Source: Planctomycetota bacterium (GTDB taxonomy: Bacteria > Planctomycetota > UBA1135 > JAKEFM01). Taken from it: DNA of 64,000 nucleotides. How positions within the stretch are numbered: the first letter of the stretch is position 1; each line of letters opens with the position of its first letter. The position numbers and the translations under genes were made by a program. Positions 38,927 through 39,935 of this stretch are shown here, in pieces. The notes beneath the pieces were generated by a model. It was not told the DNA's origin. It saw only the letters and a list, made by a program, of their open reading frames with translations, and ran no database searches. The stretch is taken from NCBI GenBank assembly GCA_022616055.1, contig JAKEFM010000115.1, positions 1 through 64,000 of the forward strand, in the 5' to 3' direction.

Positions 38927-39583
38927 TCAGTCCCCGTAACGGTCCTGGAGGACCTTCAGGACGCGCTCGGCCTTCGCGGGGGACAGGAAGGAGGAGAGCT
39001 TGCCCGGCAAGCCCTCGAGAGCGACGGCGAGCTGGTCGTGCAGCCGTTCGACGTCCCCTCCCGCCTCGTGCGCCCGCTCGAATGCGCGGGCCAGCTCCTC
39101 CCGCATGAGAGCGCCCAGGCGTTCGGTCTCCGCCTCGTCGAGCCCCGCGTCCCTCGCGACCTGCTCGGTGATTCGGCCCGAGAGGACCTCCGACTCGCGG
39201 CGCGACATCCGCGAGGACTCCCCCGCGCGCATCCACGGCTCTCCCTTCCGGTAGGCCTCGACCTGGGATGCCTCGTCCCGGGCCGGGAGGCGGCGGACCG
39301 GCTCGCCGAGCACGGCCGTCGCCTTCCGGACGGCGCGGGAGGCGTCCGCCTCCGGCTCCAGCTCGAGGAGCACGTACCGGCCGGACCAGTCGACGCGGCT
39401 CGCCTTCACCCCCTCGACCTCGTCGAGTCGCGCCAGCACGGGCGCGAGCCGCAGGCCTCAGCCGAGGCCCGAGACCGCCCCTCAACCGAACCCGGAGACC
39501 TGGAGGACGGCGAACCCCTCGACGCGCGGGGCGCTGGCGCAGCCCGCGAGGGCGAGGACCAGGGCGGTCAAGAGGGGTCGCAC
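38927..39583 (-). CDS. HMA-like lipoprotein with two in-frame UGA codons; candidate selenoprotein
   Basis: From GTG 39583 the frame gives a lipoprotein signal (RPLLTALVLALAGC, lipobox LAGC, C15), then FAVLQVSGFG-UGA-GAVSGLG-UGA-GLRL and LARLDEVEGVKASRVDWSGR, then a helical C-terminal domain ending at 38927. The region matches heavy-metal-associated ferredoxin-like folds: VSGFGx aligns with VxGMxC, and the second UGA lies 17 residues before the GV of the HMA pattern, where its first Cys normally sits. The UGAs are codons 34 and 42. Each is followed by a hairpin. A gene caller would report only 38927-39439. GTG 39583 directly follows GGAGGAG, and the upstream lipoprotein stop is eight bases away, so the two form an operon. 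Alternative: a nonsense-mutated pseudogene. Confidence 0.65.
39428..39447 (-). promoter_or_regulatory. SECIS-like hairpin after the second in-frame UGA
   Basis: After the UGA at 39460-39458 come 10 bases and then a perfect 7-bp stem TCGCGCC/GGCGCGA with loop CGTGCT. The loop starts 17 bases after the UGA and has G at position 2. The geometry fits bacterial SECIS elements. It also lies within coding sequence, as bacterial SECIS elements do. Confidence 0.5.
39454..39469 (-). promoter_or_regulatory. SECIS-like hairpin after the first in-frame UGA
   Basis: After the UGA at 39484-39482 come 12 bases, then a 6-bp stem GGCCTC/GAGGCC, extendable by one G-U pair, with loop GGCT. The loop starts 18 bases downstream and begins with GG. 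The second UGA lies across the loop and 3' stem, so the two elements would have to be read in turn. Confidence 0.45.
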
Positions 39584-39590
39584 CTCCTCC

Positions 39591-39935
39591 TCAGCGAGGC
39601 GCCGGTCGGCTCGCGGGAGCCGGCGTGTCGAGGTGGAGCATGTCCTCGATCACGACAAGCAGCGTCCCGTCCAGGAGGTATCTCCAGTCCTCGCGGACCC
39701 GGCCTTCTCCGTCGCGGATGACGATGCGGCCCCCGTCGCCCTGGCAACGGAAGGTCTCCGCGCCGTTGACGTTCCCGACGTACGACCAGGATCCCCCCTT
39801 CTCGTGAGTCAGGTCCGAGTTTCCACCGGCCGGCAGGCGGTAGGTGAGGTCCCCCACCGTCGGCTCGGGGCGACCGGGAACCTTGCAGGACGAGAAGAGC
39901 AAGGGGAGGAGCAGGAGCCGGCCGGAACGCTTCAA
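39591..39935 (-). CDS. Small lipoprotein of unknown function
   Basis: This 114-residue protein from TTG 39935 has a lipoprotein signal (RLLLLPLLFSSC, cysteine 17). The mature part is beta-rich (GDLTYRLPAGG, GSWSYVGNVNGAETFRCQGD, DWRYLLDGTLLVVIED) with no known domain. The stop codon TGA runs into the ribosome binding site of the UGA-containing HMA lipoprotein, so the two are co-transcribed and probably act at the same membrane. No good ribosome binding site precedes the TTG, so the start is not certain. Confidence 0.7.
   Translation of the reverse strand: MKRSGRLLLLPLLFSSCKVPGRPEPTVGDLTYRLPAGGNSDLTHEKGGSWSYVGNVNGAETFRCQGDGGRIVIRDGEGRVREDWRYLLDGTLLVVIEDMLHLDTPAPASRPAPR

Follow-up and report, generated by a model that had tools for sequence, protein, structure and literature searches.

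A putative envelope lipoprotein with an HMA-like domain and two predicted selenocysteines in a U-x7-U loop

The window analysed here, a stretch of 64,000 nucleotides from a Planctomycetota bacterium, carries on its minus strand a gene whose frame runs through two UGA codons. We conclude that its product is probably an HMA/MerP-like lipoprotein of the cell envelope with two selenocysteines (Sec, U) in a U-x7-U arrangement, two SECIS elements and a role as a soft-metal clamp; Sec insertion, the identity of the metal and the direction of its flow are inferred. That both UGAs are read as Sec we hold with very high confidence, and this has about the most support that sequence alone permits. The explanation as a whole rests on the recoded UGAs, their replacement by Cys, the Sec machinery, the HMA-like fold, the lipoprotein signal and, in two relatives, mer-like neighbours, and is limited by the absence of protein or expression data.

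The double-UGA gene and its orthologues

The first-pass annotation had described a lipobox, LAGC, in a frame broken only by two UGAs. The coordinates proved to be as read: a minus-strand frame of 218 residues, including two Sec, is interrupted at codons 34 and 42 only, in both cases by UGA. It starts with GTG, codes over 39583..38930 and stops at TGA 38929-38927, and its predicted product begins MRPLLTALVLALAGC-ASAPRVEGFAVLQVSGFG-U-GAVSGLG-U-GLRLAPVLARLDEVEGVKASRVDWSGRYVLLELEPEAD... The features of the locus are as follows.

39583..38927, minus strand: double-UGA lipoprotein gene; a single frame through two UGAs, aligning over its length with six orthologues
39539..39583, minus strand: predicted lipoprotein signal peptide, lipobox LAGC with Cys15, read from the sequence; all six other full-length orthologues also begin with a signal peptide and a lipobox-like Cys
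39482..39484, minus strand: UGA codon 34 (predicted Sec1) in SGFG-UGA-GAV; UGA in six orthologues (window counted), TGC in L003
39458..39460, minus strand: UGA codon 42 (predicted Sec2) in SGLG-UGA-GLR; UGA in the same six, TGC in L003
39452..39471, minus strand: bSECIS-like hairpin 1, loop GGCT at 39460-39463, with UGA42 in its loop and 3' arm; raised synonymous-codon conservation
39428..39447, minus strand: bSECIS-like hairpin 2, loop CGTGCT at 39435-39440; raised synonymous-codon conservation
39281..39520, minus strand: HMA-like (beta-alpha-beta-beta-alpha-beta) domain, residues 22-101, from AF2, Foldseek, hhalign and the PDB profile search
38930..39271, minus strand: C-terminal domain, residues 105-218, mainly helices in the AF2 model, conserved in orthologues, with no Pfam or NCBIfam match
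39591..39935, minus strand: small ORF for a predicted lipoprotein, with its end 7 bases upstream of the gene; read from the sequence, no Pfam family

The small lipoprotein ORF is a possible operon partner of the double-UGA gene. An Rfam scan of the locus returned no RNA family. Standard annotation would be expected to miss the gene, or to place its start past both UGAs.

Orthologues were sought with profile and pattern searches across approximately 500 genomes of the phylum, class-wide and then phylum-wide (392 genomes). The class-wide search returned one stop-free protein (G027:C656, locus L003), 41% identical over 206 aa, with TGC at both UGA positions. Weak class-wide matches (L004-L006) were rejected as orthologues, being HMA ATPases or chance. 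The phylum-wide profile search identified members in G154, G365, G334, G309 and G171; in each of them the frame contains two TGAs and no more, in the same alignment columns. The loop reads UGAVSGLGUG in the window, UAAVPGLGUG, UGAVAGLGUG or UGPVPGLGUG (three times) in the other double-UGA orthologues and CGAADGLGCG in L003; the double-UGA motif is summarised as UGxVxGLGUG. A DNA pattern for the motif (TGAGSNNNNGTNNNNGGNYTNGGNTGAGG; the family profile is A2) matched five of the 392 genomes, exactly those five, and its reversed control matched none. Alignment of orthologues had been proposed as the check on the first reading, and the check was met: in every member both positions are occupied by UGA or by Cys (Sec/Sec in six members, counting the window, and Cys/Cys in one). 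That five diverged orthologues repeat both UGAs at these positions, and that a sixth has Cys/Cys there, is beyond chance as judged from the alignment.

The six double-UGA genomes, counting that of the window, represent four families. Repeating the searches with a seven-row profile gave zero additional full-length members, indicating that the U-x7-U family is rare and patchy. A genome-contig scan with the protein alone as query produced a single match, a chance one in Streptomyces, so no named organism was seen to carry the protein, and a plasmid search found no match to the double-UGA family. One further genome, G355 (L014), was left out because only the C-terminal domain is in frame and the lipobox lies in a different frame. 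This locus (L014/L052, G355:C10) holds a relative of the C-terminal helical domain in which the UGA motif was not seen, and may represent a frameshift or a domain-only relative.

An HMA-like domain and its possible function

For every protein comparison and for the fold, U was written as C, which may favour Cys-bearing matches. The AF2 model, built from a single sequence over residues 19-105, has the ferredoxin-like order beta-alpha-beta-beta-alpha-beta with a pLDDT of 78. Its best Foldseek match in the PDB is MerP (1osd_A, E=4.1e-4, prob 1.0), and nearly all the other leading matches are HMA domains. Comparison by hhalign with six HMA sequences, four of them typed in as references, gave P 81% and E 1.2e-5. 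When the family profile was run against PDB sequences, the top three matches were all HMA proteins (NmerA of mercuric reductase, CopA and CopZ), each of them weak (E 0.68-0.89). The HMA-like core proposed in the first-pass annotation is borne out by these comparisons, and on the strength of the model we regard an HMA-like fold of the N-terminal domain as highly likely. Membership of HMA nevertheless stays under every Pfam and NCBIfam cut-off: Pfam HMA (PF00403) had no match above cut-off in any of the seven members, no Pfam family was found for any member, and no NCBIfam model (June 2026) covers the domain. The U-x7-U motif is also absent from all 119 families of a 2026 review (PMC13188914).

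The placing of the UGAs at the cysteines of the HMA loop was upheld only in part: the loop is GxxU-x7-U, with the chalcogens eight residues apart, not GMxCxxC or CxxC, and it is ambiguous which one is the counterpart of the first Cys in HMA. From GLGU to GV there are 21 residues, the same spacing as from GMxC to GV in HMA domains, by which Sec42 would be that counterpart. Alternatively, Sec34 may be the first Cys, followed by an expanded loop, as its strand and G-x-x-U (SGFGU, TGLTU) resemble VxGMTC. The sequences leave this undecided.

The neighbourhood of the window gene contained no recognised metal genes. The double-UGA genes of G334 and G309 each lie divergently to a MerR-like regulator, which is followed by a lipoprotein in which an HMA domain with a double-UGA motif, GMTU-x3-U, is fused to thioredoxin. 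The regulator was scored in G334 alone (TIGR02051: 139.6 bits, cut-off 150.85), and only there does a 2Fe-2S metallochaperone/MerTP fusion also follow it. In G171 an arsenate reductase-like (ArsC-like) gene adjoins the double-UGA gene. The orthologue of G365 (L012:1096-2088, plus strand) has at its N terminus, fused to the U-x7-U domain, a DF-family (seleno)protein domain that scores 85.4 bits (cut-off 70) and contains a UGA of its own (FTURIYG); the protein is thus predicted to contain three Sec. These neighbourhoods, known from sequence, would point to soft metals and to mercury first, although none of it proves a metal.

Several other candidate selenoproteins were encountered. A second double-UGA family (L049:5111-5836, minus; L050:1535-2269, plus; L061, in G334:C1241) consists of lipoproteins with an HMA GMTU-x3-U motif and a C-terminal thioredoxin (AVGU, SVGU, PSGU); the L049 and L050 genes adjoin MerR-like regulators and score 51 and 39 bits against NF041115, whose cut-off is 95. 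HMA-thioredoxin genes with the UxxU motif ATUMAUP and two UGAs each occur in G171 (L057:1303-1998, plus) and G154 (L058:1606-2241, minus). The window genome itself encodes, on contig C105, a small HMA lipoprotein (L059:1528-1851, minus) with one in-frame UGA (VPUGGCV, UxxC).

The affinity of selenolates for Hg(II) far exceeds that of thiolates. A trap for soft metals, mercury in particular, is the best functional reading and one towards which we lean; metal binding has not been shown, and both metal and chemistry are inferred. The lipoprotein would be exported, lipidated and anchored in the envelope, where a soft metal, with Hg(II) the likeliest, would probably be clamped between its two selenolates; the pair would serve as a trap of high affinity, or as a point of hand-over to a transporter or thioredoxin-coupled partner. 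We know of no characterised resistance protein that uses two selenocysteines as a metal clamp. Since the domain is small and foldable and has a natural Cys/Cys counterpart, a diselenolate metal clamp could be measured directly.

The main rival accepts a true double-Sec protein and takes the selenols as an envelope redox pair, in a diselenide or selenenyl-sulfide oxidoreductase. Selenoproteins are mostly redox enzymes (PMC13188914), a DF-family seleno domain is fused to one orthologue, and thioredoxin is fused to the related double-UGA HMA lipoproteins. The fold, however, is that of HMA and not of thioredoxin, mer-like genes adjoin two of the orthologues, and a thioredoxin partner could merely hold a metal site reduced. 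We therefore consider a redox pair unlikely, while keeping it as a serious competitor to the metal trap.

Decoding of the two UGA codons

A complete set of Sec genes, on which the di-selenocysteine reading depended, was found in the host genome: selA (536 bits), selD (364 bits) and tRNA-Sec (RF01852, 79.9 bits) adjoin one another on contig C322, and selB lies on C375. The host selD (L008:6773-7810, minus strand) itself has an in-frame UGA, in SDCAG-U-AAK, at the canonical Sec site, for which a UxxK motif has been described (PMC13188914); the mechanical ORF begins past this codon. The selD gene thus provides an internal positive control for UGA being read as Sec in this genome. Among the six other genomes with full-length orthologues, selA was found in five (G027, G154, G365, G334 and G171). 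It was not found in G309, which is 84% complete and whose gene has both UGAs, nor in G355 (67% complete). The proposal of a di-selenocysteine protein is in this way supported by the relatives and by the Sec machinery; incorporation of Sec has not been shown experimentally.

Hairpins had been reported after both UGAs, with loops 18 and 17 nt downstream, and were found exactly there. Hairpin 1, GGCCTC[GGCT]GAGGCC, has its loop 18 nt past UGA34, and hairpin 2, CGCGCC[CGTGCT]GGCGCG, has its loop 17 nt past UGA42. The second UGA overlaps hairpin 1, which the first-pass annotation had not mentioned: it starts on the final base of the loop and extends into the 3' arm. The bSECIS model (PMC13188914) places the loop 16-37 nt downstream, with G in the first two loop positions and a folding energy of <= -7.5 kcal/mol. 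Both sites satisfy it, but the model does not discriminate at this base composition (the genome has roughly 70% G+C): for the window, 100% of synonymous shuffles were also within the limit of -7.5 kcal/mol, so the predicted SECIS elements fit without being individually diagnostic. Only in L011 were the hairpins clearly more stable than synonymous shuffles, and pair covariation in the hairpins was not significant among seven sequences.

Codon choice is stronger evidence for SECIS elements than hairpin energy. In the 20 codons past UGA34, identical residues were encoded by identical codons in 69% of cases between the two Sec sub-clades, compared with 45% elsewhere (Fisher p=6e-6, a nominal value, as the sequence pairs are not independent). 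The same test against the Cys orthologue gave 50% and 48% (p=0.89). As far as alignments can tell, the raised synonymous-codon conservation at the hairpins supports an RNA constraint. SelB and tRNA-Sec would decode UGA34 by means of hairpin 1, whose loop and 3' arm hold UGA42, which would then be decoded by means of hairpin 2. With UGA42 falling within the predicted SECIS element of UGA34, the gene offers a test case for how SelB copes with closely spaced, consecutive recoding.

A UGA-reading tRNA other than tRNA-Sec might instead insert cysteine or another residue at these codons; such tRNAs are known in some bacteria, and a Cys/Cys orthologue does exist. This we consider very improbable, given that the host has a canonical tRNA-Sec, selA, selB and a Sec-type selD, that codons downstream of the UGAs are under synonymous constraint, and that TGA is the ordinary terminator of the double-UGA gene and of neighbouring ORFs, so the genetic code of the host is not globally altered. 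That the UGAs are ordinary stops, in a decayed gene or one truly starting at the GTG of Val50 past both of them, where a 170-aa mechanical ORF begins, is barely credible and already contradicted by the orthologues: conservation extends to the lipobox, first strand and loop, which lie upstream of the UGAs, the two UGAs stand at identical sites in six genomes, the Cys orthologue is open throughout and lacks a start codon at the Val50 position, and G+C by codon position resembles that of coding sequence ahead of the UGAs (0.79/0.55/0.94), between them (0.86/0.71/1.0) and past them (0.81/0.48/0.94).

Relation to known systems

Four known groups come nearest to the protein. The metal-binding double selenoprotein MbdU (NF045648) is listed as metal-binding with two Sec (PMC13188914), whereas its motif is CU and the window family does not match its model. 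The DF family (seleno)protein (NF049942) supplies the partner domain in the G365 orthologue, is distinct from the U-x7-U domain and is absent from the window protein. The UxxU metal-binding (seleno)protein NF041115 (putative mercuric reductase HMA) shares an HMA-type domain, two Sec in the loop and a metal context. Its motif is UxxU and not the U-x7-U of the window protein, which also carries a lipoprotein signal and, at its C terminus, a helical domain; no member of the seven-protein window family matched the NF041115 model (cut-off 95 bits) at E<=1. The periplasmic mercury-binding protein MerP (TIGR02052; PDB 1osd, 1afi) is the best fold match and also an exported small HMA domain, and relatives of the window gene lie near mer-like genes. 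MerP, however, has GMTCxxC and no lipid anchor, whereas in the window family CxxC gives way to Sec and an expanded loop, and the sequence match between them is below detection.

As far as the Pfam and NCBIfam libraries show, HMA selenoproteins with UxxU are already catalogued, whereas the U-x7-U loop, the combination of lipoprotein and helical domain, and the overlapping SECIS elements are not. We propose, with only slight preference over doubt, a new selenoprotein family of envelope HMA-like lipoproteins with an expanded U-x7-U loop and overlapping SECIS elements, belonging to a broader and for the most part uncatalogued group of HMA lipoproteins with two Sec (U-x7-U, UxxxU-Trx and UxxU-Trx) that would act as diselenolate mercury traps in Sec-decoding bacteria.
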